Assembly: GCF_040054535.1 (NCBI RefSeq)
Contig: NC_090796.1
Coordinates: 8,306,501 to 8,370,500 of the forward strand
Length of the DNA: 64,000 nt
Direction of reading: 5' to 3'
Origin: Antennarius striatus
Lineage: Eukaryota; Chordata; Actinopteri; Lophiiformes; Antennariidae
The number at the start of each line of letters is the position of its first letter. Position 1 is the stretch's first letter. Below the pieces are notes generated by a model, which saw only the letters and a program-made list of their open reading frames with translations, was not told the DNA's origin and did not search any database. The position numbers and the translations under genes were made by a program. Of the stretch, positions 1 through 64,000 are shown piece after piece.

Positions 1-17359
<17,359 letters not shown>

Positions 17360-28418: not shown

Positions 28419-29012
28419 ATGACTGAAACGTCGGCAGCTCCTGCAAAAACCAAGAAGACGGTGAATAAACCCAAGAAACCCGCTTCTCATCCGAAATACT
28501 CGGACATGATTAAAGCGGCGATCGTCAACGACGACAGCCGGAGCGGCGCGTCCCGCCAGTCCATCCAGAAGTACGTGAAGAAGAACTACAAGGTGGGCGA
28601 CAACGTTGACGTGCAGGTGAAACTGGCCCTGAAGCGGCTGGTGGAGAGCGGGATGCTGCGCCACACCAAAGGCGTCGGTGCGTCCGGATCCTTCAAGCTG
28701 ACCAAACCGGAGGAGTCCAAAAAGGCACCGAAGGCAGCGGCGACCAGCAAACCAAAGAAGGCGGCAAAGCCCGCCAGAGCCAAGAAGGTGGTCAAGCCCA
28801 AGACGCCGTCAAAGGTGGCCGAGAAGCCCAAGAAGTCAGCTGTGAAGAAGGGGGCGAAGAAGGTCGCCAAAAAGGCGCCACCGGCCAAAGCCAAGAAAGC
28901 GCCAGCAAAGAAGTCCAAACCAGTCAAGGCTAAGGCGAAAGCGACCAAGAAGATTACCAAGCCAAAGCCCAAGCCAACGAAGAGGGCAGCCAAAGCCGCC
29001 AAGAAGAAGTAA
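28419..29012 (+). CDS. h1-0: Linker histone H1.0 (replacement-type), intronless
   Basis: This single open frame of 197 codons encodes a linker histone. The N-terminal tail (residues 1-23) is followed by the winged-helix globular domain (24-95) with [28 protein letters not shown] and [12 protein letters not shown], then a Lys/Ala/Pro-rich C-terminal tail of about 100 residues. The MTE start, SRQSIQKY and [10 protein letters not shown] mark H1.0 rather than replication-dependent H1. A polyadenylation signal follows about 500 bp downstream and I noticed no histone stem-loop, as expected for a replacement variant. H1.0 binds nucleosomes at the dyad and linker DNA and accumulates in differentiated cells. 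It is transcribed opposite to its neighbours rhbdl1 and rhot2. Confidence 0.96.
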
Positions 29013-32517: not shown

Positions 32518-39105
<6,588 letters not shown>

Positions 39106-42238: not shown

Positions 42239-45200
42239 TCAGAAGTCCTGAACCTGCCAAAGCAGGATCTCATTTTGGGATAGAGTGAACAGGAACCTCC
42301 CAGAGGAGGAGAAGTGGCACTTCTGCAGGGAGTCACTGTGCAGCATAAAGTCCTGGAACCTTCCGCTGGATGACTTGATCAACTTCAACACTCGCTCTGA
42401 TCAGAAATTAGGAACATAATGAAATACTGGTTAGAACCATAAACTACTGAGATCTAATTACCTTCCTGGAACAATATAGACACACAGGAATCTACCTTTC
42501 GATCCCACAGCTATAAGTTGTCTCACAGAAGAGAGGCTGAAACATGTGGCCCAGTGGGGCAGAGCAATTTTTTTAGTTATCTGTAGTTAAAAACAAAACA
42601 AAACACACAGACACACAAAGATCAGTATATACACAAACATTTATGGACATTCTATTGGCAGCCAAGTGGTAGAGGGAAGAAACAGGGGCGTTATAGTACT
42701 TGTTTTTTGGCCAGGCTGTAGAACAAGAGCTCTTTTTCTTCCCCGTAACCGGTGTAGACCACCAGACTGGGGTCTGCTGGACAGATAGCAGCCAGGCTGG
42801 GAGGAGGGCTGCCGTCCTACAACAAAAACATTAAAGGTGTTACCATCAAATGTGGACTAGCTTTAATACGCAAACATGTGCCTTGACCTGAGGTAAAATT
42901 CAAATAATAAGTAAATCCAAAAACTGAAATGAAACAGACAGTACCTCACAATAGACTGGAGCAGGAAATGTCAGCCAGTCAAGCAGGCCACACTTATCTC
43001 TGGACCAATCAGCAGCCCACACACTGACACGTCTGTCAGCGCTGGCAGCCAACCACATCTCGTTTCCTTCCAGGCCAAACTTCTTACACTGACAATTAGA
43101 TGACGAAAGAAGCAAAAGGACAATTTCAGAAATCCTTTTTTTTTTTTTTTAGAGTTTCACATAAGATGACCTTAAGAAACAAACTCATTTTATATTACAG
43201 CTTTTTGATAATTGTACAGGATATAAATGCAGTTAATTAAAGTGTCTGAGTACTCAGTAAGTCTGATAAGCGACTGCTGTTCCAGAAATGCCTGAGGAGC
43301 ACATTCTCATATTGTGTGGTTGATGACTGTAAAACTGTTAAAACTTCCTTTTGTTCTGCTTCAGTGAGCTGACCTGTTCCTTCACACACTGGATGGTGGT
43401 AACGGACGCTCCTTTGTGGTCTTTGATGACCCGGATGGTTGTTCCATTCACTGGGTCGCTGACAGCTATCAGACCATTCTTCCCCGCCGACAGGATCATG
43501 TGACCTGCAGAAAACCAACAACAGTACAATGAGTTTTATTACCAGCACATCATGAGTGAAGTGAAAGGGTCTTCTCATAACTACCTAACCCAACTTTGAC
43601 CCATCCTTTCAAAATTTCTAATAAAAAAGAAAACATTTGTTGTTAAACAGCGTAAAGTCCTGCTATCGTCTATCACCATCAGTCGAGTACAGGACAGAAG
43701 TGACGGCCACGCGATGAGGATGCAGCTTCATCTCCATCTCTGAGGAGGCAAGTCGGAAGATCCTAAGGCTACCATCGCTGTATCCTGCAGCCAAACATGC
43801 TTTATCTGAACTGGATGAAGGGCTCCAGCATACACAGCCACAGGCCTGACAGGATGATCAAGAGGGTGGTATTATTTATGTCCAAGTGCACTGTGGATGT
43901 CTCAAAGCTGCGGTGTAATGCCTCACCTGGTTGAGCACCTGGAACTGCACCACCAGCTCGTTGCTCGGGACCAACCACACCCTCACACTGCCGTCCTCAC
44001 TGCAGGTGGCAAAATGTCTTTCGTCTGAGCTGAATACGATGTCGTTCACCTGGACAAAAGAGAGGAGAGCACACTGCAGATGTTTGATTGTGGATAAGAG
44101 GTTTTTTAAAAACTTTTAATACAAAAAAAAAAAAAAAACACACAAGAACTTAAAATGAAGGAGAGGATACCAGAAGGGAGGGAGTTTTCTTCAACATCCT
44201 TCCTGCAATCATCTACATTTATTAAGACTTAGGAAAGGAGGTGGGTTTTAAGAAAATAGAAATAAAAAATGTCTTTTAACTGTCCATGTGGGAAATTTCT
44301 TTCCTATCTGATATAATTTGCACACATACAGGCCACAGCATGCACATACACATGCACTCGCACACACACATGTGAACCACATAAAAGCAAGTACAGTATA
44401 AACCAAAAATGAGCTTGACATTAAAAAACCTTTTATTCAAAAGAAGGTGATTAATATGAGAAAGGCTTTCAAAGAGTATAAAATACACCATTTTTATCTG
44501 AAACAAGTGCTGAAAGCTTGTTTTTCTTCTTAAGCTAAACTACCTGTCAGTGAGGTAACACCAGCAGCTCCGTGAAACCTGTTTTCTATTACAGATTGTG
44601 TAGCCAAAGGCCGATACACAGACATGTTCCCAGTATAGTAACTTGTTGTAATTAAGAAAACAAAAATACGTGAAAAGAGCCTCTGTGATAAACAGCTGTT
44701 CTACTGCATTTCGTGTTCATCACCAGATGCTTTGGACTGTGCTTATAGCCTTGATTCACTGGTACCTTAGTCTTGTGTCCGCTGACCAGCCGGACGCTGC
44801 TGTTGTCTGACCAGTTGATGTACCAGAGGGTTCCTGCAGTGGTGCCAACGATGCCCATGTCCACTGTGCTGTCAAACGCTGCACTGACCGTCGTCCCATC
44901 CAGCATTATCTCCTGTGCCAACACAACCATGCCTGTCCCACTACAGGACACAAACAGGGAACCACAATGAACCACTTAAATAAAACAATGTGGTACTAAT
45001 ACTATGGAGCGCTTGCAGTCCGTTAAAGATGATTAAATTAAATTTATGGAACTGCCTGGATAAGACTCAGGTCGCAATACAGAGGAGAACGAGATACAAA
45101 CCTGCCTTCCACTCTTTCGACCTTTTCCTCAGGCTTCATACGAAGCACAGCTCCTACGTCCCACAGCTGCAACCAGCGGGTGTTGCTACCTGTCAACAGC

Positions 45201-46994
45201 CGGTTCTCCCGACACAGCAGCACTCCTGCATCGCAACAACCAGAAAATTTTAAATTGCAAAAATGAGAACTGTATGAAATCAAACAACATAAGAACTTCG
45301 AACCAAAAATATTTCATAAGAAGACGGGTAGAACATGCAAAGGGTTCGCATGTACCGATCTCGCCCTTGTTCGCTTCCCAGGTCATGAAGCAATGGTGTG
45401 TGCTGACATCCCAAGAGCAAATGTGTCCTCGATTGGTGGCGGTGAACAGAATGGAATCCATGTGGTAGCACAGTGCCGTCATCTCCACATTGCCCACCTC
45501 TACTGGTGCTGTCACCCGGTGAACCTGTAAGGGTGACAGCATGGCTGATCCTCATGTACCAAAGCCAAATACAAGAAAGGTGATAGTTTTGAGGAGAACC
45601 CAGCCCCCTTTTTAAGTCAATAAAATAAGATAGATAATAAGATAGATAGATAAGTGGACCCCATTTGGTCAAATATGTTCTTACAGTCGTGTTGTGTCCA
45701 TTACTTTAAAGATTAGAAAATCAAAACTCTCATTTTGCTATCCAATCATGGAGCTTTCCTGATCACTCCTGACCCAAAAGGTGAAAGACATCTATAAAAT
45801 TACCGTTTTAATTTGTGTGCCCAGAATATTTAATCATTTTTGAGTCACTAGAATTACCAGTAATCTCAGTCTTTTGTCCTTGAATTCAACACACAATGTG
45901 TAGATGAATGGTTGCTCGACATTAGGATTTAAAGGCACCTGCAAACTTTGTTTTGTTTTTTTCGCCTGTGTGTTACCTGCTTTTCTCCTACATTCAACAG
46001 GAACTCATACCTCGAGTTTTAAAAAAAAAACATTCGTGTTTTTCTGTGGTTATTCACCTTGAGGTCAACAATAGAGCCATGTGACTGGATGAGGCAGAAG
46101 TTAACCCTTTGGCTTCCCACAAAGCCCAGCTCGCTGGCTGATGAGGGGCTGAAGGCCAAATCATGGATCGGTCCAGAAACACTAATGCTGGACAGGAGCT
46201 GGAAGGCCCTCGTGCTCCACAGAGCCACTACTGGTTCAGAAAAATCTCCTACAGGTTGTTAAGAGGAATCAATGCTCAGCAAAGGGACAGTCTCATTACT
46301 TTAATCCATTGTGTCAAGCTATGCAAAAGGTTAAATTTAGATTCAAATGTTACTGACCAGCAGAGAGAAAGAAGCGATCATCCCTGGAGAAAGCAAGACT
46401 TTGCACCTCACCCTTATGGTAGGAGATGGTATTCTGACATGTGCCACTTTGAACGTGCCAAATACAGATGAGGCTTCTGCTATTACTGCTGCCAGATGCT
46501 GATGCCAGTATCTGGACAGGGGACAAAAAATCAAAACAAACAGAGTGACTTCATTTTATATTCTAATTCCATAAAACATAGGAATATAAATGTGAAATCA
46601 AGAGGAATGAAGTACTTGTGCGTCGTTTGTGACTGCAAGACAAGAGATCTCCTCGCTGTGGCCCTGTAAATGTCTTGGACGTCCCGTGTGGAAGTACTCC
46701 ACCACCACCACACAGCCACAAGAGTATGCAAACAAACCTGAGACAGAAATCAATCACTGGAATTTTTGCACATTAGTTACTTTCCATTCATTCTATATGA
46801 ATGCATGTATACTTTACTGTTCACAACAACTGAACACTTGGATATAGCATTCCTAACATTCTAGACAACATTCCAGTATAGTCCTAACAACCTTGCTCAG
46901 GTCTCCACACCATATTGCCACGCCCATTTCCATTGTAGCCAATCACTGCTTTCAGCTTTACACACTCTTCTCCTGGTTGGGGAGCGACAGGAGC
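42239..46994 (-). CDS. wdr90: wdr90 coding exons 30-43: second WD40 block and C terminus
   Basis: Exons: 46892-46994, 46616-46737, 46358-46511, 46058-46248, 45356-45524, 45102-45225, 44766-44940, 43927-44049, 43677-43845, 43374-43504, 42945-43088, 42700-42816, 42496-42580, 42239-42396. The block opens with LKAVIGYNGNGRGNMVWRP, parallel to the start of the first block. Repeat ends include LICIWHV, HICSWDV, WLQLWDV, SVRVWLV, RVSVWAADW and EILLWQV near the C terminus. DGTTVSAAFDSTVDMGIVGT and ATCSEDGSVRVW are strongly conserved in the family. The protein ends QNEILLWQVQDF. Confidence 0.95.
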
Positions 46995-49900
46995 CTGCAT
47001 CACAGAAAACATGAAGACAGGAATATAAAAAGACTAATTCAATTAGTGAGGACAATCCGTCATTACACAAAGCCCTAGTTACCTGATGAGCAGTGGAAAT
47101 CTTGAAACGTGGGATAAAGTGTCGATAACAATTAGGACGTACTGATTTCTTCCCACTAAACTCACCTAAAGTGAAAAATTATTTTCATTAAAAATACAAA
47201 AAGTTCAACAGTGACATAAAGAAAAAAAAGCAACAAAATTGGGTCACTGTTAATACAGAACAAATCAGCGAGACTCTTACCAGTGTCTATGTGACAAGTG
47301 TCATTGGCGGATGTGCTGTTAAGCTCTGTGACTTTGAGGAAAGAGGCAGCAGGTCTAGCGTTGGTGGTGGGGGCTGGAACAGTCAGGGCGGATGGAATGT
47401 CATCAGAAAAAGATGAGTCCAAAGCTGCAGAGTTAAACTACAAATTAGTGTCCATACAGAACCCACTGCTACTGGAATAACTGCTTACAAGTGTAGAAGA
47501 AGCTTCACAGTACTGTAAATGCATCTTTTTAGCATGCATACAGCAAAAGACACGCTACTTGCTGCTAAAAGCAAACAGCAAGTCAGATTCATGTAAATGT
47601 ATTTACATTAGTTACAGTATTACAGGCATAATTTGATAGTTAATCATACACACAGAGAACAGATGGTCCTGCTGGGTTCATGTAAAACTGGAAGACAGAA
47701 CGTACCACTCTGGTCGACCTGGTCGAGAGTACTGACATCCATCCTGGGCAACGGCGCGGACGGAAGAGGTGCCGACTGTCGAGGCATCCCTTTGGACAAC
47801 CAAACCTCACTCGTTTCATCTGCTGGTTTTTCTTTTCACACGAACACACAAGATCACGGGTTCATTTAAAATTTTCACAGATATCTAAATCAAGTAACAC
47901 ACTCTAAATTAATGTAGCATGACAATCAATCAATCAATACCTGGCTGAAGAGCAGAAAGGTGGCTTACTTTAGGAGGGGAGCTGTGAGTGAAAACAGTGT
48001 TTATTGGAAATTTACCCTCAAAACCATGTTAAAAAAATGCAAAACCTACATAAATAACAAGATTCAAAAGAAGTGGAAGAACCATTACCAGCTGGTAGGC
48101 AGAGAATTAACAGGATATGCCAGGAAATCCCAGATGAATATTGCATCGCCCACTGACACAACGCTCAGCTGGTCGGGGGTGAAGCTCACCTGACGGATTG
48201 GCTGACTGTGGCCGATGAACATCTGAGAAATAAATGATTCCATTATTGAATCTGGTACATCCTAAACTATGAACACCCCAAATGATAAAACATTCAAACA
48301 TACATTCTACAATAGAAAATTTTTACCAAATAATTATTACTTGTCCAGTCAGACAGGATGGCGAAAACTGATTTATTCTGGATCAATTTATACACTTATA
48401 GATGTACATGTTTAACAGTAAAAGAACTTCTTTGTTTAGAATACGTTCTTTTATCAGTGAACCAAAAGTTCAGAAAACAGCTTCAGTTAATTCTGTTAAC
48501 AAATTAATGTATCTTGAAACTAACTTGCATCCATTTCTATACCTGAGCATTTTTTGTAAATAAAAACAACCTGATTTCGTTTCTAAAATCTAAAATTTAT
48601 GAGGTTTGGCATTTAATCCATGAGTTAACTAAACATTTGAACAGGGTTTTGACTTTAAAACAAAGACTTTCAATGGTAAACAGTGTGTGATGTTCACTCA
48701 CATATTTTTATATAATTATATATATATATATTTATAAATATTATGATCTCGCACGGATTCTGCCTTATTAAAATCAACCAAACGGCAACATGATGTCTGC
48801 TCATTTTACACGCCGCAGCGAGAACGAGGAGTTAGTTAGACCCTCCAGAGCTTTCTTGCATATAAAACTACCAAAAGTTAATGGAAAAAAAGAGACTGGC
48901 AGATATTACTGAAATTTGAGTGGAGAAGGCTCTTTCAGCTTGGTGCAGTGTCCACAGGAAAATACAGAATATAATTAAAGGCAAAGAAAACTACTGAGTG
49001 AAAAGCAAAAGTGAAAAAAACCAAAAACTATTACGTCTTTATTTCTAAAACTTTTTTAAATGACTACCAGGTTTTATCATTTAAAAAATAATTTTGCTGA
49101 TTTTTCTTTTAAATTGATGTTATTAATAAAAATATTAAAACATTAATTTTAAAAAAAAGTATTTATACTGTACCACTGGCAAAACTCAATCCTTGCCTAA
49201 GCTTCTACTGTATATTCTGCCATGACTTTTGGGATGCATAAACGTCATGTTGGGATGCACAATTTTTTCTTGAAGTGCATTCCTGGGATGCACTACTTTC
49301 TTGAGGTAAAATGAACTCTGTATATATATTATATGTATATATTATGAGTCAAACTATCAACCTAGAGAAGAATGTTTGGTCTAGTTGTTAATGAAAATGT
49401 TCATGCCTTTAGTTGTGAGGTTGAAAACTGTTTAAAGCATTGAAACAAAAACTAGATGTTTATTCATTGGCTTATACTTGAAAAGTAAATAAAACAGCAG
49501 CTGGGATCTTCTCAAGTTTACATTGCAAGCAACACTACTCTTTATTAAACATTAAAACCTGTAAGTACCTGTGAGTTCACACCAAGGTGCATGTTATAAT
49601 CCCACACTTTCAGCACATTGTGTCCAGCTGTCAGTAAGAATCGACAGTCGTCACTCACAGCCAGTGACGAGCACTGGTGTTTATGCACCTTAGAGACCTG
49701 ACAACAGGACAGAAACTCATTCAGTCCATCACATATTTGAAAACAAAACAAACAATTTATGACGTAGAGACAACATATGTGCAGTTGAGCAGTTTTTATA
49801 TTTCTATTTATAGACAAGGTCCAATCTTTCCCAGGTTTTAAGATGATGACAGTAACACGGCGGTTCGATTCCCTCTCCCGCCCAAAACACCCGGAGGTGA

Positions 49901-52900
49901 GCTGACAGTGGGAGGTGTCAGCTCACCTCTGGAGCACTGCCGAGGCGCCCTTGAGCGAGGCGCCCTTGAGCAAGGCGCTGTCCCCCTTACAAGTTGCTCA
50001 TTTGGGGCGCACCAAGCAGGAGCTGCCGACCACTCTACCTCCTTTGCATGAGTACAGGCCCCCTGTGTGTGTGTTCAGGGCCTATACACACTAACTAACA
50101 TGCATGTGATTTGATCTGGACTAACTAGAGTGTGCCACTAATTTCCCTTCGGGGATTACTCGTGTATATAAAATTAAAAAAAAAATTAAAAAAACAACAG
50201 ACAAGGAAGGGACTCAGTGAGCATGTAATATGCTGATTTGCACAGCACAGTGTTACCTCTCGAAGCAGACGTCCCGTCTTGGTGCTCAGCCAGAGGATTT
50301 TGTTAGCAGACGTGGCAACCAACAGGTGTTCCGTTGCAGCCACTGAGAAGCAGACCTTCAGTGCAGAATCAAGACGAGGGCTCTCTACATCCAAAATACT
50401 CACATCTACATGGAGCAACTAGAGAGAGATTGAATTATTAATGTGGGAAAATTTACAGAGAATTTCAAATTAATTTTGAATTCATGAGAATAGAATATTA
50501 ACAACTATATATTTAAGTATTAGAAGGACATTCTGTGTCTTAAAGTTTTGGAAACGGTAGAAAAAGAGAATTCCACAACATGAAAGCTTCTTTTTCTACC
50601 TAACTATTTCTTCATAACACCAAATAAAAACCTGATTATATGTACTTGCACAAACCGACAAAGGACATAATGCCTGAAGTTCATGGCGTGTCATTTACCT
50701 CATCTAGTGAACGAGAGTCAGCGATGGTGACAATGTACTCCGAGGGGCCGATGAATGCCAAACAGCGGTTGTTCCTGCTCACTGCGAGGGCATCAGGAGC
50801 ACGCTCAGTGCCCCGGGCCACAACATTACCTAGCAATCACGCAAAGGATCAAACACAATTGCTAGTTGAACATGACAGCATGGTATGCTATTAAGTGATT
50901 CACTCAATCGCTAAAGCATAATACGTAGTAATTTCAAACAATCTTCTCTATACTATATTGAAATAGCTAAAAAAAAAGACAGACATTGTGCCTGTATGAA
51001 TGCTGAATAAATTATACATAAAATGTGCTGGTATTTACATGAGTTGTGTCTGCTTAGTGGGTGTGGATACATACACACAACTTTGATAACACTGTGATCT
51101 TCCACGGATGCGTTGTAAAGTGCCAGAGAGCCCTGGGAGTCAGCGCTATACATGAATTCCCCATCTGGGGAGAAGGCAAGGCCCACCACCTTCCCTCTGT
51201 GTTGGCTACAGATGTACACATAAATACAAGTAAACATTCAGATAACCAAAAACAGACAAGAATGTAATGGTCAGTCACATACCTCAGCACATGTTCAGCC
51301 AACAGCTTGGCACTGGAGATGTCAAAGACTCTGACGACACCGGAGTCGAAACCACAAGAGAAGACCTGCTCGCTGGGATGAAAGACCACGGAGCAGGGGC
51401 TGTCCTCTGACACAAAATCATACAACTGAACATGGGAGACAACAGACATTTCATTAAAAAATACACCATAAATATCTATGGAGTCAAAGTAAAGACTAGG
51501 CTTTGATAATTTATGAAGGTAAATTTTTATTATCAGACATTTTTTTAAACAGGCATTGAGAAAAGTTTCTTCATTCTAATGCTGTTAGAATAAGTGGTAT
51601 AGTATACACAGTTTCAACTTGCAGAGGCTTTAAATGATGTCAAACAATGACCACAAATGCTCCAGTCTGGAAGGGAAAACAGGATTTAATGCTCGGCTCC
51701 ACCAACTAATGCAGACAACCTTCACATGACAGCATTCCATCTTTTCAATTTAAGGCAGTCTGACAGAACAGAGTTTTTATCAACAAAGAAAGCTCAAGAG
51801 ACTACAGGCTAATAAATAGTTTCTCTTAAGTGAATGGCCTTGTTTTCATCGTCTAAATATTTCTCTTCTACAAAATAAAAACAAGATTCAAAGTATTCCC
51901 CTGATAGCTTGCTGAGCCATTATGATTGTGTATTAATATGTAATAGTATATGAGTACCGGTATATTAAAAACATAAATATAAGGTGTTAAAAATGTCTAA
52001 CTGACCTGTTGCAAAGTATCCATGTTCCAAATGCGCACTGTGCCGTCAGCAGAAGCTGTCGTGAGATGGTGATGGATCCCGTCCATGCTGAAGCCGAGCA
52101 CAGCGTCTGTGTGTGACCTCATTAGCGTGTTGTAAACACGGTTGTGAACATCGAGGAAACCCATGGCACCATTAGACGTGCCTGCCAGGACCCAAAGGCT
52201 GTCCGATGTCACCGACACCAGGCTCACCGGTCCCTTGTGCTCTGGAAATAACAACATGCCTCAAAATTAGTTTTGCACACAGCATTTGGACTGTGAGATG
52301 ATACAGTTTGCATTCATGCTTTGAATGCATTAATATCTAGCTGTAAAACTTAAGAAATTTGCTTTACGATATCACAAATCTTAAACTTAAGTGACATATT
52401 TCCTTAGCACTGTGTCATTAGAGTTCAGTATGTGACCATGACACTATTCACACAGTTTGCCACCTGAAGCAGCTGCAGTCATGTTGAGATGGAAAATTAT
52501 CTTTTAGGGAATCCGTTTAATCCATTTAAATTTTTGTTTTCGCCAGAAATTCACCCAACTGTCTCACAGATGGTTGGCAACAGCCAAGTGGTCACTTAAT
52601 TGCTCATCTCTCCTTCCTGCTAACTGTACAACAATGATGAAATTCTAGTCTACTCCAAAATGAGTCACGTATCATGTAAAAACACCAGCTGAAATCGGAG
52701 TGTGTGTCCAGTTTTAAATAAGAAGATTTTCTTTCTCTGCAAATTTGCAACTTTTCATTTTTAGAGACTGGTAGCGTTGCTGACAGCCAGTTTAAAGTAT
52801 ATCAAAATTTATTAACAGATTATGGTTATTTCATTATGACACGTGTTGAATAAGATGTACAACTCTTAACTTTATTTTCACGGGTTATTTTTAAACTTTG

Positions 52901-55900
52901 TATTAGTTGTAAACCTGAAAATCTCTCCAGCAAACCAGGAAATCACTATAAACGTAAGCAATGATGAATTAAAGATTTTGTTGCTCCCTGTCCAATGGGA
53001 GCTTCAGCTACTGTTACTTTGCTGCGGGTAAATGCTATGCCCTTTGCGCCCACCAGCCTCAAGGAAGACAGTAGAAAAATCAAGGGGCCAAAGCCGCAGG
53101 AAGCCATCTTCAGAACCCGTGCAACAGAATGACGAGGAAACACTGATGCAATTGATTGAAATTCCTGGACCTGCAAAACACACACATCTAAAATTACCAT
53201 AAAGGCTTTCTCCTCTACAGTCACCCTCTTTCTGATTCACTTGAAATGTACCTGTATTAAACGCCATTTTCTCCCTGCAGTCCACATTCTGCTGCTGTGC
53301 AGGTAACAGCTTTCTGACGTTTGTAATTACAGCTCTGCTGTAATCAATCTCGAAGATAAACCCGTTCCGACTGCTGGCAAACCTATTGTAGGACAATCGT
53401 ACAGGAATAACAACATAATTTTAGCACTTAGTCCAGTGCAATTTAATATAATGATTTGATGGCAGCACTTGGTGTAGTGAGTCAGGCTTTTGTCGCACAG
53501 AAAGAAAGGTTTGGGTTCAAATCCACCTGAGGGCCTGGGAAACTTCTGTGTGGAGTTCATTTTCCCTCTGTTTACTGTGTGTCTGTATGAGTTCCCTCCA
53601 GGTTCTCAAGTATACTCTCTTCACCAGTAAGGTGAGTTGCTAACTTTTAATTACTGTAACCATAAGTGTGAGTCTAAAAAGTTTGTCTTTCTATGAATCC
53701 CGTAATAATTCTGCAATTTGTAAAGAGCATACTTCGCCTGGGATAGGCTCCACTTCTCAGTGACCCCAAAAAGGACAGACAGAAATCAAATGAATGACTC
53801 ACAATGTTCGATCATCTAGACACTGGTTGAAGGAGGGTCCCTCCTGAAAGGCCACATCAGTAAAGTTCACAGAGTGGAATTCACCCAGGTTGACTGGACA
53901 AGACAGCAGCTTTCCATTCCTCATACGCCACAGCCGAATATTATCCTGACCACATGACACCATCCTGAAGTTGAGATTACACAGATTACTTTATGGCCAA
54001 GGCTGTGATTCAGTGAAAAGCTGGTCTCATCTGTTTTCAAAATAATGTATAATAAATGAACTTAATGACTCAAAAAGTAAAAACAAAAGAACAAATACTG
54101 AACTGTCAAGCATGTTTGTCAACATGGAGCGGTTATCTGTCGGAAAATAGTCAAACTTTGTCTGTGGTCAATGCAGCAGCACTTTGGTTACAACAAGATG
54201 GCTAAGAACAACTGGAGAATTGTTGCCACCAACACGGTTTTAACAACACCCACTCTGTTTGTAATGTACATGTAGACATGGGTCACACACACACATGATG
54301 TCACAGTGGTTTTCGTCACAGGTAGGATGTATCAAGATGAAAACTCCGGTTACAGCCATCCACACACAAAAGCATACTCGGAGTTTACGTGTGGACGATA
54401 AGCCTAACCGTAGGAAAATATATTTGCTTTTAAAAATACCTGGCTACGTGTGGACAAGACCTAAGATTGACTAATACATCAAATGAGTGTGAATATTGGT
54501 GAGAATCCGTTTACACACTTCTGCAGGGCTAACAGAAGAGGTGGTACAGACGTGTCACATCAGATCTGTGTGAAAATAAGATTTTATATTTCTAAAACCT
54601 AAAATGGCATGAGTATGTGTCCTGTGGGTCAGTGGTTGTCTACATTATTTAATAGAGCACACCAGATATAGTAGCACCTTTAACAGTTATTCTCAAGTGC
54701 ACAAATAGAGGAAAATGTTTCTGAAGAAACACAGGCTGCTGGCTGGGACGATAAGATAAGGACAGAGAAAGAAGTACCGTACCTCGTGTCATCAAAAAAA
54801 GCGACCTTCATGGTGAGGATGTCAACATCTGTGTGTGCTTTGGCAAGGATGGTAACCTCTCCACCTTTACTAACTTTCCGAGTATTCCAAACTACCACCA
54901 TCTGTCAAAAAACAGATTAGCGACATTAGACAGAAAGATTGGCTCTGCATTATTTAGAAAACCAATTTACATAAATTAAGGTAATAATGTGAATATTGTT
55001 TGAATATTTTAATCTAGATGTAACGGTACTCAAGGCTCGCTAAAAATTTTGAGCACAGCTCAAGTTTTTAGAAAATTGCCTTTTAACGAAAATTAAAAAG
55101 TGTCATTTGAGAAATTGTTAACTTGTGGTGCTTACTGTTTTATCATGCTTGTCTTTACCCACTCCACAGAGAAGCCCGCCACTGTATGAGAAGCTATAGA
55201 ATGGAAAGAGAACAAAAAAGGTTTGTATTCAGTATGAACGAGCAGTAAAATAACTGTGTAAATCCAAATATATCAAATCAATTACCTAAGAGATGACAAT
55301 GAATGAGCATGAGTCCTAAACATAGCCAGGCAGTTTCTCTGGTGGTAATCCCACACCCGAACTACACTGTGGCTACCAGTTTGTGCTGAGGCCAGCAGTG
55401 TTGTGTTACCATTAAAAGCCAGAGCAGACACCTGCACAGAAAATTCAATGGTGGATGTTGCAAAAGTAAATTTTTATAATGAACATAATGACAACTTTTT
55501 CTCTGAAAACAAATGTAACTATATCAGAAGCCCAGGAATTAGTGGAATCATCATAGAGCTTTATTTAGAAGGAAGAGAAGAACCCTAACACACACAGCTC
55601 TTACCTTATCAGTGTGGCCGGTGAAGAAACTCTGCTGCTTAGAACATATCTTCAGAGAGACAATTATTGCGTGACACGGATAGACTACTGCATCACCGGA
55701 TTTAGTCCACAGGGCCTAGTGTAAAAAGAAGTACATCTATTAGACGATTAGTAAATTTCAAATATGTTATTTACTTACATGTGAGAAGACAGCTTGAGAG
55801 GGTCTGAAGTTCACATGCGCATACATATTTTGTTGTGGCTCCTCCAAAGCCGATGATTCGGCTGAGTCTGAGAATTGGATCTGGAATCAGCTTCTAACAA

Positions 55901-58900
55901 GTACATTAAAGTTAAGGAAAATATTTGCTATGAGCTCTTCATCAAATAACGTCAATGATCATCGTGGTATTATTTGTCTTTACTATCTTCATCTCTTACC
56001 TTTTCTCCTTTGCCATTGGATGATGTTAGATGGACAGGTTGTGGAATATGAGCACAAACGAACTGAGGATAACATAAAATGAACAGTGATTCCAAGGCTG
56101 ACATTAAAACTACATGGAAGGCAAAATAGATGCAGAAAGGCAGATTGTGGGATGTAATGGGATGTAATGTAATGTGAGCTTTAAATTTCAATTGAATATA
56201 CAATTTTTTGAAAATGAAAGTTCACCTCTTCTTTACTTTCTTCCTCATTTTTGCTGAACCTGTCCTCAGGATGTAGGTACACATGTGCGCCCCGATCATC
56301 TGCACCACAGGGAGGCCTGAATGTCAGCTGGCCTAGGCCACAGCATGATGACTGTTGCTGGTGATTGCCATAATTATGGCATCCATTCTTCTGGTAATTG
56401 GTAGCTACTCCAAGCTGAGGCATGTTTGTAACTAATGGAATTTGATTTCTCAGATGCTGAGAATACAGGAAGAAAAATCAGCACTCTGGACTATTTTTGC
56501 AGATGGACTTCTAGGGAATTGGAATCATAGAGGTAGTGCATGTTATTTGTCTTACTGATTTTGGAGTGGTGATCTGCTGGATGAGGGACAAGCGGTCCTG
56601 AACGGTTTTGCTTATGTTGACAGAACGAGGTTCCTCTCTAACGGGCATTTTTTGGCTGCCAATAACTTCTGGTAAAGAAATACATATGAAAGTCAGCCGT
56701 CTACAATCCATTTCTATTAAGATTATATAAACATTTGAAGACTAAAAGAAAGTTTCATGATCAGAACAGTGCTGGTAGAGACAATATACAGTACCTGATC
56801 TATCTTAATAAATAATGAACAAACAGACACAACCAAATAAGAATAAACAGTGGAAAATTACACAGGAGTAGTTTGTTTCAGGTGCAAGTTAAGGTTAATA
56901 TTAGAATTGCTTCATTATTACTTGAAAAAGTCTAAAAAGAAAACTCAAAAGGAGTTCAGCAGTAAATTTGTGAATGAGGAGCAGCGGTATTTTTCCTGAC
57001 TTACCAGCCTCTGGCTGGGAATTGCCTTTTTGAATTGAGTCCAAGGATAATTTGGTTCCCTCTGAAGGAAACCTGTTAGAATGTGACAAAATGAGGGATT
57101 AAATAGCTGTGCAAACACAACCTGGACACTATAAAATTCCGAAATCATTTAATTATCTCTAATGAAAGTACAGTATGTAACAAGAAAGTTTGTGTTGAAG
57201 GACAAACATGTTCCGCTACTGGAGAGAACTAAATGTGTAGATATGGATGGATCGCAACTTCTATCAAATGAACATGAAAGTTCATTTGACAGAAATTAGT
57301 CTTGTGATTAGTAATTAGTAATAGACCACAGACAAGTGGTTGACTTTACCTGATATAATCATAAAAGTCATGCCAGGAGTTTCCCTTGGGCAAAGGAAAT
57401 GACATCTCTCTGGGCATAGGACCTGTTCCTTGAGAAGAGGCAAGACCCATCAGTTTGGCCTCACTGAAGGAAATTCCTGTTGAAGTAAAAACAGCAAATG
57501 CATTAGCTAAAAAGCATTAGAGAAAAGTAAAAAAAATACATGGATGTATTAAGAGCGGGACAGAACTATTATTCATAACCAATAATCAAAACCCAAGCTC
57601 AAAGAGGTGTTCACAGCACACTGTTAGAAATAAAACAAGAAAGATTCTTCTTCTGATAATCAGAAAAAGAATCCTTTTAATGGTTAAGAGGACATACCTT
57701 TACATCTAGAAGTAATCTTTAATTATTTTCATGTAATAAAATATATATTACATAAAATAACATATGATCATAAATGTGTTAAGTCATATAATTTTGTACT
57801 TGTATAATTCTCCACATGACACCATCTAAACTAGCAGAAACCAACATGTGGTGAGTATCACCTGGATCTAGCAGAAGGTCACTAGTGAACATGTTTTTCA
57901 CAGTCATGTTGGCACAGAGCTTGATGCTTTTCAGGTAACTATAGCCGTGGTTGAGGTAAATAGAAAGTATGTATTGCAAATCCATCATCAAACAGGTCCA
58001 ACGTACTGAAGAAGGAGCAGGACCCATTAAACCTGGATCATAAAAACATCAATACTGTTAGTTTTATACCACATCATGCATCATCATTTTCATCATGTGC
58101 AAATGTGCAAAGGCAATGATGGAAATCGATTCATATGTAGAATGGGTCATGTCCGCACAAGACTGGTTGTACATGTCTCCATGTATTTTACCTTGTCGTG
58201 TAGATTTTGCTGTGTTCTCATAGACTGAATCCTTTGCAGCTCCACACAGGAAAGGAAACTGAAGCGACGTAGGCGTACACTTGAACTCTTTGAACATGTT
58301 GGAAAAAGAGATACGGACCACCTGGTTCTCCTTCACATCACAATAACAAAGAGTGGACAAGTTGATGCATTACTTAAAAACAAGAACAAAACAAAAAATA
58401 CATCTCAAATCAATAAAATTGTGATACAAAGAACCACTGTTCAAATTAAATTCCAGTAATATCTATAAATATTAATCCTCTTACTGTCATCACACAAATA
58501 CAGTCTCAGAATCACTTCATAAAATCAGATTTGATACCTTGGTAGAAACATCTAAGTGAACAACAAAATATTTGCCAGGGGTAGGTCTGAAGAGAAGGTA
58601 GAAGTAGCGCCCTATCAGCCCCAGAGAGTGGTTGCTATTTTGGGGTACCAGGATGTAGCTGTTGGCAGGAACAGGACCCCTGATGCTGAACACTGAACAC
58701 TTCAGTGTCTTGTTCTGGAGGGATTCCACGAAAAACAGAAATGAAGTAAGTCAACAGAATAACTATGGTTAAAAGTATCTTCAATTTCAATCCATGGATT
58801 CGTTATAAATTGAGGATACAGGACAGGACACTAGATCAGACATTTGTTTGGTTTTGTTGATGTTTTTGACATTATGCTTACAGATGTTGAGCATATTTTA

Positions 58901-60031
58901 CACAAACACACACAGGTTGTCCCAAAAACTGTATACACCATTTAGCAGCTGATAACGAAATTATCTGTGTTTATTTTGCAGATTAAATATGTTAAAGTCA
59001 ATGATGGCAGCAAGACTACACCTTCAAGAAAGGAAATGCATTCTAAAATCCTACTGGAAGTATGAAAATACAGTTGAAGTGCAAAGACAATTTAGGAGGT
59101 GGTGTCTTCCTCACGACAAACTTGCCGCACAGACTTTCCTGGAATTTGCTGAAATATTCCCAGAACTCTTTCTTTTGAGTGGATTCTCAGTGTCCGTGGT
59201 CTTCCAGAACACTTCTTGTGGACATTCTGAACAGTTCCTTCAGCTTTAAGCTCATCTCTAATTCAATTGATGGTAACTCGTGTCGGTGGTTCTTTTTGAA
59301 ACTCCCTCCTAAATTGTCTTTGGAGTTTTCAACTGTATTTTCATACTTCCAGTAAGATTTTAGAATGAAATTCCTTTCTTTGAAGTTTAGCCTGGCTGCC
59401 ATCATTGACTTCAATGTATTTATACTGCAAAAAAACACATGACAGAATTTTGTTATCAGCTGCTAAAGGGGGTGTACTTGTACAGCATATATTTTGGGAC
59501 ACCCTGTGTGTGGTTATTTGAAATTCATGCACAGCTGCATCGACATTTCAATTGTGCAGTGATGTTTGAATTTAGACAAAAAATTCAAGTTTGGAGTGTG
59601 GACTGGTAGCTTGTGCTTTCATTCTTAGACACTGCCGAGGTGACTTTGAGCAAGGCACTGACCCACCCCTAACTTCTTCCGGATGGCTCCCCATCCCTCT
59701 ATCTCATGTGTATGTCTATGCAAAAGAATTCTCCCCAGTGAGCGATTAATAAAGTATGGTAGATCTTACAAATGTAGTTACCATGTATGAAGAAACGTCT
59801 CCCTCTTTTGTCGACCTTTTCCAGTCTTCTAGTCTGACATGTTTGAATATGTTGACGTAAGGATGCTGCCAACCTGCGAAGCCAAACAGATTTCACCAAA
59901 GTTGGAGAGAACAGCATTAGCTGTTGTTTCAGTTTGCGGCTTTTATCTCGGTCTCTGTTGATGGAAGCTACATTCTGACGTACTAACGACGTAAAAAGTT
60001 AAACTAGGTTCATTTTACCTTTAGAGGCCAT
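42239..60031 (-). CDS. wdr90: wdr90 (POC16), WD-repeat centriole/cilium protein, complete
   Basis: Forty-three coding exons with GT-AG borders join in frame to 1843 codons plus stop. Human WDR90 is, as I recall, about 1750 residues. Start ATG is at 60031-60029 (MASKGWQHPYVNIFKHV) and the stop is at 42241-42239. The order is an N-terminal CFAP20/DUF667-type domain (about residues 5-200), a low-complexity linker, a first WD40 block (about 399-1057), a second linker (about 1058-1189) and a second WD40 block (about 1190-1843). The family is known as POC16/WDR90, a microtubule-associated protein of the centriole inner scaffold needed for centriole architecture and cilia. No frame-disrupting change was seen. 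Exon positions are given in the four block entries. It is followed on the same strand by rhot2 and preceded by a class B receptor gene. Confidence 0.96.
47083..47981 (-). CDS. wdr90: wdr90 coding exons 26-29: inter-propeller linker
   Basis: Exons: 47941-47981, 47706-47831, 47281-47424, 47083-47165. They encode a Pro/Ser-rich, probably unstructured linker (SPPKVSHLSALQPG, SKGMPRQSAPLPSAPLP, SFSDDIPSALTVPAPTTN). The 41-base exon 26 and the start of exon 27 (after AAAAG) were set by frame, because exon 25 ends in phase 2 and the only open frame in exon 27 needs two leading bases. Borders here are less certain than elsewhere in the gene. Confidence 0.78.
48089..55893 (-). CDS. wdr90: wdr90 coding exons 11-25: first WD40 block
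   Basis: Exons: 55825-55893, 55605-55715, 55286-55431, 55136-55193, 54783-54901, 53803-53964, 53252-53382, 53054-53170, 52006-52241, 51283-51425, 51075-51205, 50699-50829, 50257-50418, 49569-49697, 48089-48222 (residues about 399-1057). The block opens with LIPDPILRLSRIIGFGG and ALWTKSGDAVVYPCHAIIV. WD-type repeat ends include VVRVWDY, NIRLWRM, GFLRLWPLDF, GTVRIWNM, VVRVFDI, VLKVWDY and AIFIWDF. Such blades usually form beta-propellers that dock other proteins. Exon 21 uses a GTATGT donor, chosen because only it keeps the frame into exon 22. Confidence 0.94.
49858..50180 (+). mobile_element. SINE/LINE-tail type repeat in wdr90 intron 23
   Basis: It starts with a B-box-like GGTTCGATTCCC, then has GAGCACTGCCGAGGCGCCC, a duplicated CCTTGAGC.AGGCG unit, and the end CCCTTCGGGGATTACTCG with an A-rich tail. 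This matches a widespread fish retroposon end whose usual form is ...CAAATTTCCC.TCGGGGATTAATAAAGTA. The family name is not certain. Confidence 0.7.
53455..53805 (+). mobile_element. Old, diverged copy of the tRNA-headed SINE in wdr90 intron 16
   Basis: The order of landmarks matches the other copies: an A-box-like TTGGTGTAGTGAGTCAGGC, B-box-like GGGTTCAAATCC, GTGTGGAGTTCATTTTCCCT, GAGTTCCCTCCAGGTTCTC, and the end TGGGATAGGCTCCA. Many substitutions show it is much older than the copies at 22.3, 39.7 and 61.3 kb. Confidence 0.7.
56000..60031 (-). CDS. wdr90: wdr90 coding exons 1-10: CFAP20-like domain and linker
   Basis: Exons: 60019-60031, 59782-59873, 58538-58714, 58192-58330, 57862-58032, 57350-57476, 57005-57072, 56556-56668, 56226-56456, 56000-56062 (398 codons). 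Key stretches are WQHPYVNIFKHVRLEDWKRS, LGLIGRYFYLLFRPTPGKYF, VVHLDVSTKENQVVRISFSN, MFKEFKCTPTSLQFPFLC and SVRWTCLMMDLQYIL, which track the DUF667/CFAP20 fold. PMPREMSFPLPKG.SWHDFY closes the conserved part. Exons 7-10 are Ser/Gln/Asn-rich and poorly conserved. Exon 1 codes only 13 bases, so the start depends on the fit of its donor with exon 2. Confidence 0.93.
58911..59508. mobile_element. Mariner-like fold-back (inverted-duplicated) transposon relic in wdr90 intron 2
   Basis: Both ends carry CACAGG.TGTCCCAAAA terminal repeats facing inward. The left arm (58911-59100) and the inverted right arm (59302-59508) are near-copies of each other over about 190 bp. Both encode the same transposase N terminus: MMAARLHLQERKCILKSYW on the plus strand and MMAARLNFKERNFILKSYW on the minus strand, each followed by KYENTVE. 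The centre continues the minus-strand copy in another frame (KEPPTRVTI, EGTVQNVHKKCSGRPRTLR, GKSVRQVCREED). So this is the 5' half of a mariner/IS630-type transposase gene flanked by a second, inverted 5' end. Confidence 0.87.
59628..59765 (+). mobile_element. Second copy of the CACTGCCGAGG-type repeat (3' part) in wdr90 intron 2
   Basis: It shares CACTGCCGAGGTG, CTTTGAGCAAGGCACTGACC and the end CCCCAGTGAGCGATTAATAA with AGTATGG, the same 3' tail type as the repeat at 49858-50180. It lies next to wdr90 coding exon 2. Confidence 0.65.
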
Positions 60032-60609: not shown

Positions 60610-60945
60610 TGCAGTCCTCTCTGACCCACGGTAGACAGTACAACAGGCAGTACAACACAGACAGTGCAACAGGCAGAACAATACAGGTAGCACAACACGG
60701 GACAACACAGGCACTATAACAAAGGCAGGACACACAGCAGGACAACATAGGCAGTACAACACAGGCAGGACAACACAGGCTGTACAACACAGGTAGTGCA
60801 ACAAGCAGTACAACACATGCAGTACAACACAGGTAGTGCAACAAGCAGTACAACATATGCAGTGCAAGACAGGCAGGACAACACAGGCAGTGCAACAAGC
60901 AGTACAACACAGACAGTACATCAGACAGTACAGCACGAAGTATAA
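60610..60945. repeat. Imperfect minisatellite, units of the GCAGTACAACACAG type
   Basis: Some 330 bp are made of variants of GGCAGTACAACACAG and GGACAACACAGGCAGT, with larger blocks repeated (for example TAGTGCAACAAGCAGTACAA occurs twice). Long Cys/Leu/Val-rich open frames on the minus strand arise only from this periodicity. Confidence 0.93.
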
Positions 60946-61697: not shown

Positions 61698-62099
61698 TCA
61701 GTCTGAATCTACATTCACAACATTTGGGAGTAACTCCACAGGGTCTTGAAGGTGGATTACGAAAGACACCTGCATTGCGGCAGATTGCTCAATGTCACTC
61801 TGACTCCCATGCTGCAGCGTGTTGACTCTATTTACTACTGATGGAAAGTTTAACAAAGAATCATCACATTGTGGATAATTTTGTTGAACTTGATGAGTAA
61901 AGATCTGTGAAATATCAGGATTGGGTGAACGCCCAGCCATGTCTCTTGTCACTGTGCCTGCGGACCTGTTGCGCCCCGGAACTGTGGCAATGGAGAAGGT
62001 TTCAACCCGAGATTCAAGGGCGGCTAGCCATTGTCCAAAGCAAGAAGAATCAGCATCTGTCCTCCAGCTTTGTAGCTTTCTTCTTAACTCTTCTCTCAC
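61698..62099 (-). CDS. Class B receptor last coding exon: cytoplasmic tail
   Basis: Acceptor TTGGGTGCAG precedes VREELRRKLQSWRTDADSS, equivalent to the EVQSELRRRW helix 8 region of GCGR. The remaining 115 or so residues (for example FGQWLAALESRVETFSI and SPNPDISQIFTHQVQQN) are not recognisable. Several Ser/Thr residues could serve for receptor desensitisation, which is inference. Confidence 0.88.
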   Translation of the reverse strand: MREELRRKLQSWRTDADSSCFGQWLAALESRVETFSIATVPGRNRSAGTVTRDMAGRSPNPDISQIFTHQVQQNYPQCDDSLLNFPSVVNRVNTLQHGSQSDIEQSAAMQVSFVIHLQDPVELLPNVVNVDSD

Positions 62100-64000
62100 C
62101 TGCACCCAAGGTTAGAGGTTGGATTATTTGTTTTGTGTGTGCTTTGACCAAAACTACATTTCCCACAATGCAGTAATTAAGCACATTTTAACGCTGACAA
62201 AAACGTTTCGAACAAAGTCAATGTTTTGACTTGTGTTTGAGGTTATTTTTCTTTATTCTCCTGTGTAGTTTGATCCTTGATTGATACAGTTCTGTCAATT
62301 TGTCAGGTTTCATAACCTGATAAATTAAAAGGATTTACTGCATGTTATAACAGAGCAACAAACAATTTTTTTCTGTGCAACTGTAGAGTTTGTAACTTAC
62401 ATAAGTTATAAATTTAGAGTTATTTAATATTAAGGATATATTCATTGAGTTACATTTAGTTACATTTACATGTGTTACATGTGGCCCTCTGAGGACAGCC
62501 ATTATGCTGATGTGGCCCTCAGTGAAAATGAGTTTGACATCCCCGACTTCAACCGTAATGCTGCATTGCATCAACTGGCTTGGCAGGATAAAAAGCCATA
62601 AAGTGAAGAGGAGTTTGATGAAAAATACCACAATGACATTGTTGAAATCTTCTTACCTAAAAACAAACTAAATGAATGGTATCAGACACCCAACTGTCCA
62701 GGCATTCTGTTGAATACAGAATATCAGACATAAATGGGGCTACTGAATCACAGTGGAACTCTGTGAAGCATGTGAAATATTTTAGTGTTACATTGGATGA
62801 GTATTGTGTGATACATGAAAGCTATTTTTAAGCTATTTTTTAGTAAAATCATACTTTCTGCCATTTCGCATATATTCGCCTTGTCTTGTGAGGTTCTTGT
62901 TCTCTGACTGGTTGGCCACTCCTGTACTAATGGTTCTTCTGGCCCATCCTGAGGAGGTGTGGATTTGGTCTCCAAGTGCCCTCCACTTCAGAATTATTTA
63001 ACATGTCTAAGGCAAATGTGACACTTTTACACAACTACAGACTGATGCATGTCGTTGTTCAGATATTGTGGTTGCATCTAATAAATAAATGCACCGGGAA
63101 CATGAAACGAAACAACAAACCTCTTTATTGGCATAGCAGTACAGCACAGCCACAAGTAATCCCTGTAGGGGGACGAAACAACAGAAAAGTTCTTGTTTAG
63201 TTCATTCATGTGTAAATGATATGCTTTACAACCTAGACTGCACATATGGATTCATTTAATTTATATTCATCAATTTCATTTAATTAATGTTATCTTAAAA
63301 CACTTTCCAGCAGGACAGACCTGCAGGGAAACATAGAACCCAACTTGACCCACATAAGCAAGTATTTTGGTGACAGAGGCAACGTAAAAATTCTTTATAA
63401 AAGGCAGAAACCTTGAGAAAAACTCAAGACTCGTAGTGGGTGGCCATTTGCCTTCACCGGTTGAGTGGACAAAGAAAGACAGAGGTAGGACGAGAGCGTG
63501 TTACATATGAATAAAACAGAATGTGATCATTTTTAATTCTTTTTGACAGACTATCAAATGAAAACATTGAAATTATGTGTTTTGAATTCATTTTCTGAAT
63601 TCAGTACCAAAATGTGCTTCATTAAAATTGAAAAAGAAGCAACAAAAGACTGACAAAGTTGTAGTAAAAGGTGGTAGTATCAAGACTGGGTCACCTTCAA
63701 AAAGGTCAATTGTTCATTACTTTGGAAACTTTTTTTTTTTTAAACTTTGTGAGACTTTTTAATAAATTTTGTATGCAAATGACTGCAGTCTGTTTTTATC
63801 TGTCAGACATGTGAGCAACACCAAGCAAGTAGTCTCTGATCTTATCACACTTACCTGAAAAGAACTGATAAAAATGCCGAGGAACACTTTAACATAAAGC
63901 AAAACATCTGTCATCTGCTCATCTGCAGCAAAGATGAAGATGATCTCATGAAGACCAAACAGAGGGATGAGGGTAAGTGTTGCCTTGGCAAGACTAAGGA
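61698..64000 (-). CDS. Glucagon-receptor-subfamily class B GPCR (3' three coding exons; gene continues off right edge)
   Basis: Three exons join in frame: 63855-64000 (open at the edge), 63121-63162 and 61698-62099. Exon A encodes TM6 and the start of TM7: LAKATLTLIPLFGLHEIIF and KVFLGIFISSFQ. Exon B is the 42-base exon typical of class B receptors (GLLVAVLYCYANKE). Exon C encodes VREELRRKLQSW and a long tail ending VNVDSD. HE after LIPLFG marks the GCGR/GLP1R/GLP2R/GIPR group: VIP, secretin and PTH receptors have HY. GLLVAVLYC and NKEV resemble GCGR most. Such receptors bind glucagon-like peptides at the cell surface and couple mainly to Gs. The 133-residue tail is longer than I recall for mammalian relatives. 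Which paralogue this is cannot be decided from three exons. Confidence 0.9.
63121..63162 (-). CDS. Class B receptor 42-base exon: TM7
   Basis: Acceptor CCCCCTACAG and donor GTTTGTTG bracket exactly 42 bases encoding GLLVAVLYCYANKE. A 42-base exon at this place is a conserved feature of class B receptor genes. It joins exon A (SSFQ) and exon C (VREELRR) in phase 0. Confidence 0.93.
63855..64000 (-). CDS. Class B receptor exon: TM6 to TM7 start
   Basis: The reading frame is fixed by LSLAKATLTLIPLFGLHEII followed by FIFAADEQMTDVL and KVFLGIFISSFQ. It ends CAG before donor GTAAGTGTG. The other two frames break or lack family similarity. The right border of the exon is outside the window. Confidence 0.92.

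Follow-up and report, generated by a model that had tools for sequence, protein, structure and literature searches.

The window, ie the 64,000-nucleotide stretch C21:8306501-8370500 of a 548 Mb genome in 42 contigs that was searched as a whole and is, to judge from its genes, that of a teleost, ends on the right within a gene for a glucagon-type receptor that lies next to wdr90. The gene is probably a working GRLR gene (also called GCRPR or GCGLR) of a teleost fish, and not a diverged GCGR. This reading is favoured because another gene, on C16, is more GCGR-like, because the receptor shares none of seven residues private to that gene and human GCGR, because it has no NTT glycosylation site, and because a gene for a GCRP-type ligand is present in the same genome.

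Three exons had been quoted in the original prediction, together with the proposal that the sequence be extended to the right and all exons assembled. All three were found on the minus strand, and ten further exons continue in phase to the right. The coding exons are as follows (positions in the window, unless given for C21).

61698 to 62099, minus strand: exon 13, the last coding exon, with the C-terminal tail and the stop codon, VREELRRKLQSW...; AG acceptor, in phase
63121 to 63162, minus strand: exon 12, GLLVAVLYCYANKE; AG acceptor and GT donor
63855 to 63993, minus strand: exon 11, LAKATLTLIPLFGLHE..., containing LIPLFGLHE; read in phase
C21:8370646-8377821 (64146 to 71321 in window numbering, right of the window), minus strand: exons 1 to 10, joined in phase to exon 11

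The span first given for the gene, 61698 to 64000, was exact at its start, but its end was a mere window edge, the last exon base being 63993. Joined in phase, the 13 coding exons give a protein of 544 amino acids with no internal stops, its start codon lying at C21:8377821 in sequence fetched from the right of the window. GT-AG ends are seen in 11 of the 12 introns; the exception, which follows exon 10, is GC-AG, and the donor of that exon at C21:8370646 reads CTTCG/GCAAGT, with GC in place of GT. The least certain of the 13 exons is exon 1, which is short and signal-peptide-like. The extracellular part carries six cysteines, at positions 47, 62, 71, 85, 104 and 125. We take the activation-network residues of class B1 receptors to be the H in KLHCTRNYIH, the E in FFGEA, the T in LAKATLTLIP and the Y in VLYCY; all four are present, and so there is no sign of a dead receptor. 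The gene is complete, ordinary-looking and intact.

The Pfam domains found in the protein were 7tm_2 (9.5e-70) and HRM (8e-18). In a phmmer search of the PDB (best 60 of 98 matches) it scored 434.5 bits against GCGR, 411.6 against GLP1R, 366.3 against GIPR and 364.3 against GLP2R, and the next match was the secretin receptor at 253.2 bits. In a tree with the secretin and VIP receptors as outgroup, it fell within the GCGR/GLP1R/GLP2R/GIPR group with support of 100/100. Judged by its sequence, the protein is a class B1 GPCR of the glucagon receptor subfamily, with a match far beyond chance, as had been claimed from three exons. No chain named GCRPR or GRLR occurred among the best 60 of 87 and the best 60 of 98 PDB matches.

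Four protein queries (the exons of the receptor, the C16 gene, human GIPR and human GLP1R) were searched against the genome at E <= 0.01 and the best candidates were considered. An extracellular exon of the glucagon-subfamily type was matched at the receptor itself, at C16:14.629 Mb and at C21:2.818 Mb. The gene at C16:14.62 Mb scored 373.7 bits against GCGR in the PDB, 353.7 against chain 5vai, which we take to be rabbit GLP1R, and 347.5 against the best chain named GLP1R; it appears to be the closest relative of GCGR found in the genome, and is named GCGR here on its PDB score. The gene at C21:2.82 Mb matched GLP2R at 331.2 bits, with the next chain at 276.1, and paired with human GLP2R with support of 97/91, which identifies it as GLP2R. 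A locus at C14:6.40 Mb gave weaker extracellular matches and was rejected as a family member; its exons read C.R.WDGWLCW.DTP, presumably of the calcitonin-receptor type. Another, at C18:12.07 Mb (12.075), was rejected as a hidden GIPR, its extracellular exon reading CSPEWDGIVCWPEGPPGKLV...CPEYIYDF, which we assume to be of the PTH-receptor type. The best candidates from these four queries included nothing recognisable as GIPR, GLP1R or another GCGR. Several class B genes were matched by their transmembrane exons only (C20:6.64, C18:0.55, C18:2.25, C18:13.0, C7:24.77 and C7:24.78 Mb and others), and some of them match the C16 gene better than the wdr90-linked receptor does.

The 20-kb flanks of the C16 receptor gene, left and right, contained no other recognisable gene. 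The Rho GDI family, used as a marker of 17q25.3, gave matches at 8.3 and 9.6 Mb on C16 and on C8, and none near C16:14.6 Mb. GLP2R and the receptor are on one chromosome, at C21:2.82 Mb and C21:8.37 Mb, and the GCGR found is on C16; PMC3679108 describes GCRPR, GCGR and GLP2R as lying on one chromosome in many vertebrates. There are two proglucagon genes in this genome (C24:920143-921411 and C12:12705905-12706427) against one canonical GCGR recognised, at C16:14.62 Mb. Two GCGRs are described for tilapia in PMC7890253.

Two trees were built, of 7 and 9 rows with 1000 bootstraps each, and alternative placements were compared by AU tests. The fish paralogues in them are partial: the C16 gene enters from exon 3 on, with one exon end unverified, and the fish GLP2R row has 311 amino acids with pieces missing. 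The commonest arrangement placed the receptor outside a group of the C16 gene, human GCGR and human GIPR, in 652/1000 bootstraps with 7 rows and 537/1000 with 9. Given in the same order, the receptor was joined to the C16 gene in 73/1000 and 104/1000 (AU p 0.176 and 0.262), to the C16 gene plus human GCGR in 28/1000 and 15/1000 (0.063 and 0.13), to human GLP1R in 145/1000 and 44/1000 (0.151 and 0.13), and to human GIPR in 14/1000 and 33/1000 (0.181 and 0.232). Over all placements tried the AU p ran from 0.063 to 0.274 and none was rejected at 0.05, the lowest value being that for the receptor with the C16 gene and human GCGR in the 7-row tree. The same trees united the C16 gene with human GCGR in just 94/1000 (7 rows) and 52/1000 (9 rows) bootstraps; their power is therefore low, which is a limit of the data, and they are too thin to say which member of the subfamily the receptor is. 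A position inside GCGR, GIPR or GLP1R, the outcome that was to speak against the original prediction, was not seen, but those placements were left unrejected over the same range of p.

At seven sites the C16 gene has the same residue as human GCGR and the other four receptors differ; the wdr90-linked receptor shares none of these residues (0/7). It shares two of the 25 private to the two GLP2Rs and 3 of the 14 private to the C16 gene and human GLP1R. Pairs that are not orthologous have as many private residues or more (14 for the C16 gene and human GLP1R, 14 for the C16 gene and fish GLP2R, 12 for human GCGR and GIPR), and the seven GCGR sites are therefore no clean markers; the counts seem to point away from GCGR, weakly. 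The N-glycosylation motifs NRT and NTT in the N-terminal domain are reported for all known GCGRs (PMC7890253). The C16 gene has both; the receptor has NRT at 63 and NIT at 82, and no NTT. Its identity to the C16 gene is 52.1% and to human GCGR 47.2%, the C16 gene and human GCGR being 57.1% identical. For comparison, PMC7890253 gives 59.2% for tilapia GCGRa and GCGRb, a value measured differently from the 52.1% here. Over 34 residues, the extracellular exon of the receptor shows 74% identity with human GLP1R.

A search of the genome with medaka GCRP, taken from PMC3679108, gave six matches, five of which are proglucagon exons (glucagon, GLP-1 and GLP-2 on C24; glucagon and GLP-1 on C12). The sixth, at C2:19848504-19848590, reads LKR-HSEGTFASEFTLYLDKIKAKKFLEWLASTNLD-stop, so that the peptide after KR begins HSEGTFASEFTLYLDKIKAKKFLEWLAST.... 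This peptide is 69% identical to chicken GCRP, 69% to Xenopus GCRP and 61% to medaka GCRP; for medaka glucagon the figure is 50%, and for GIP of human or chicken 42%. Glucagons of this fish are themselves 55 to 68% identical to the chicken and Xenopus GCRPs, and the ligand call therefore rests mainly on the residues K-I-K at 16-18 and not on identity, K-M/I-K at these positions being a GCRP-specific motif according to PMC3679108. The same paper has HOXC13 among the neighbours of GCRP. In this genome hoxc13, identified with a zebrafish sequence, lies on C2 at 21.03 Mb, 1.2 Mb from the peptide gene. Motif and match together show a gene of predicted GCRP type on C2. Species with GCRP also have GCRPR, as PMC3679108 has it.

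The gene was predicted to lie directly upstream of wdr90, and it does: the two are on the same strand, and a gap of some 1.8 kb separates the receptor stop from the closest recognised wdr90-like exon (near 59880, by eye). The neighbours recognised within the window are the following.

1235 to 1792, minus strand: rhomboid gene, named rhbdl1 from its position; Rhomboid 5.1e-15 in a search with two pieces
28419 to 29012, plus strand: linker histone gene of one exon, assigned to the H1.0 type from its position; Linker_histone 9.5e-28
32773 to 37299, minus strand: gene for a mitochondrial Rho GTPase, named rhot2 from its position; search made with two pieces
42900 to 59885, minus strand: wdr90, directly downstream of the receptor; approximate span of the recognised pieces, all but two of them by eye, exons unassembled

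From left to right on C21, and with further reading frames in between, the order of the genes named is an ankyrin-repeat gene and a WD40 gene (which we take to be anks3 and wdr24, respectively), the rhomboid, the linker histone, the mitochondrial Rho GTPase, wdr90 and the receptor. To the right of the receptor follow a gene with NACHT, NOD2_WH and NLRC4_HD2 domains (nlrc3-like), a short-chain dehydrogenase and an EF-hand gene (presumably decr2 and rab11fip3), and TELO2 (PDB 7.3e-35). Two wdr90 pieces, 51997-52260 and 58517-58750, matched the CFA20 domain at 1.1e-9 and the WDR90/POC16 second propeller at 9.9e-8, the latter below the curated cut-off of the model. The Rho GTPase pieces matched Mitochondrial Rho GTPase 1 in the PDB at 9.9e-31 and Rho GTPase 2 at 5.7e-14, the choice between rhot 1 and 2 being made from the neighbourhood only. 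Other features were also seen in the region. A minisatellite of about 21 copies of the 14-base unit ACAGGCAGTACAAC occupies window positions 60634-60942, between wdr90 and the receptor; an inverted pair of similar sequences at 58956-59462 encodes KSMMAARL...ILKSYWKYENTVE and is likely to be a DNA-transposon remnant in the wdr90 region; and unnamed frames at C21:8410275-8418175 have repeated stretches of the FVELYG / TEFVELYHTSG type, lamin-tail-like by eye.

Most of these neighbours carry the names of human 16p13.3 genes, the region to which the original prediction had matched the block. No 17q25.3 gene was recognised among the frames listed within 241 kb (C21:8266501-8507500), in an exon-level and incomplete reading. 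The human locus is not known to have a glucagon-type receptor gene beside WDR90. PMC3679108 and PMC8312260 describe GCRPR/Grlr as absent from mammals.

The company of receptor and wdr90 is already in print for fish, since a BAC of the Senegalese sole carries a gcgr with wdr90 and its neighbours. According to PMC6579814, BAC 30J4 holds nlrc3, gcgr, wdr90, rhot2, h1f0, rhbdl1, wdr24 and anks3, plus c8orf33, h3 and others, and was localised on two chromosomes; PMC7915175 names ten genes (nlrc3, wdr90, rhot2, H1.0B, rhbdl1, wdr24, anks3, c8orf33, H3.3 and gcgr), which show translocation in all the species compared. The position of gcgr differs, beside nlrc3 in the one and last in the other, and the order in such lists may not be physical order. 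For eight of the ten sole genes a gene of the same type was recognised here, the two outside the search being c8orf33 and H3.3. In this genome the Rho GTPase and the rhomboid flank the linker histone gene, which is on the plus strand; in the list for the sole BAC, rhot2 and rhbdl1 stand on either side of h1f0. The placement near wdr90 is not new, and is published for Solea senegalensis under the label gcgr. Among open-licence PubMed Central main texts, no paper was found that gives the wdr90-GRLR linkage under that name; the GCRPR synteny figure sits in a supplement.

The reading as GRLR has to be weighed against one in which the receptor is a second teleost GCGR, ie one of the two copies, gcgra and gcgrb, that arose in the fish genome duplication; its sister would be the C16 gene, and GRLR would be lost here. 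GCGR proper had been allowed for in the original prediction, and the AU test does leave the receptor with the C16 gene unrejected; the best PDB match is GCGR, one canonical GCGR is otherwise recognised here where tilapia has two (PMC7890253), and the sole gene at the matching place is called gcgr in PMC6579814 and PMC7915175. Set against this are the missing private residues, a weak count, and the missing NTT site; an identity to the C16 gene below that of the tilapia pair, by a different measure; neighbours that are, as far as recognised within the 241 kb, of 16p13.3 and not 17q25.3 type; and the 20-kb flanks of the C16 gene, which show no recognised gene. Were the receptor not GCRPR, moreover, the GCRP ligand would be left without any recognised receptor in this genome. 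On balance a second GCGR seems unlikely. A diverged GIPR or GLP1R orthologue is less likely again, and by some way: the AU tests reject neither, and the extracellular exon resembles GLP1R, but the bootstraps for both are few, the PDB score for GIPR is 68 bits below that for GCGR, and PMC8312260 and PMC3679108 report a loss of Glp1r from bony fish and of GIPR from those fish in which GCRPR is retained. A pseudogene or a fault of the assembly is scarcely credible; nothing was found in favour of either beyond the one GC donor, and against them stand 13 exons in phase, no stops, splice signals at 12 of 12 introns, the six extracellular cysteines and ordinary neighbours in a published combination.

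GRLR itself has to be reconciled with a best PDB match to GCGR, with AU tests that reject no placement and with a GCGR on C16, not C21. In its favour, beyond the points given at the outset, are the position outside the C16 gene, human GCGR and GIPR in the best trees and the fact that no other GCRPR candidate was recognised. The suggestion that the GRLR lineage would fit this place has thus held in that GRLR/GCRPR is the most likely member, but the tree does not place the gene.

As a GRLR, the receptor would work in the manner of its family. The HRM-type cysteine-rich extracellular domain of a seven-helix class B1 receptor would bind a peptide hormone, here presumably GCRP from the C2 gene, by its C-terminal half, and the N-terminus of GCRP would enter the helix bundle. 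The receptor would be expected to raise cAMP via Gs, as the family does; such signalling was measured for the GCRPRs of medaka, chicken and Xenopus in PMC3679108.

The gene is a clear and complete instance of a type of receptor missing from mammals, its likely ligand being encoded elsewhere in the genome, and the wdr90 site could be used as a synteny landmark when GRLR and GCGR have to be told apart in annotating fish genomes. Should the orthology hold up, the sole papers may have to be corrected where they label the gene gcgr. A wider picture is conceivable, though with rather less than an even chance: the wdr90-linked "gcgr" of fish would be GRLR, the 16p13.3 interval would be the site of the mammalian loss, and the second gcgr would also be gone here, so that a single GCGR, a single GRLR and a single GLP2R would have to serve two proglucagon genes and GCRP. 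The finding is known biology, and knowledge of the family is unchanged by it.

Compared with GCGR, as represented by the human protein and the C16 gene, the receptor has the same domain plan, its best PDB match and 47-52% identity; unlike them it has no NTT site and none of the seven residues common to those two alone. The gcgr of Solea senegalensis BAC 30J4 has the same company, genes of the nlrc3, wdr90, rhot2, h1f0/H1.0B, rhbdl1, wdr24 and anks3 types standing in a row here; it is named gcgr in those papers, not grlr, and its likeness lies in the gene neighbours. GCRPR is known from medaka, fugu, stickleback, tetraodon, chicken, Xenopus and anole, as listed in PMC3679108. In contrast to the setting described there, the GCGR found here is on another chromosome; orthology with GCRPR is inferred. 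The wdr90-linked gene is like GCRPR/GRLR/GCGLR in being a non-mammalian receptor of the GCGR subfamily, in a genome with a GCRP-type gene bearing K-M/I-K, and with GLP2R on the same chromosome.
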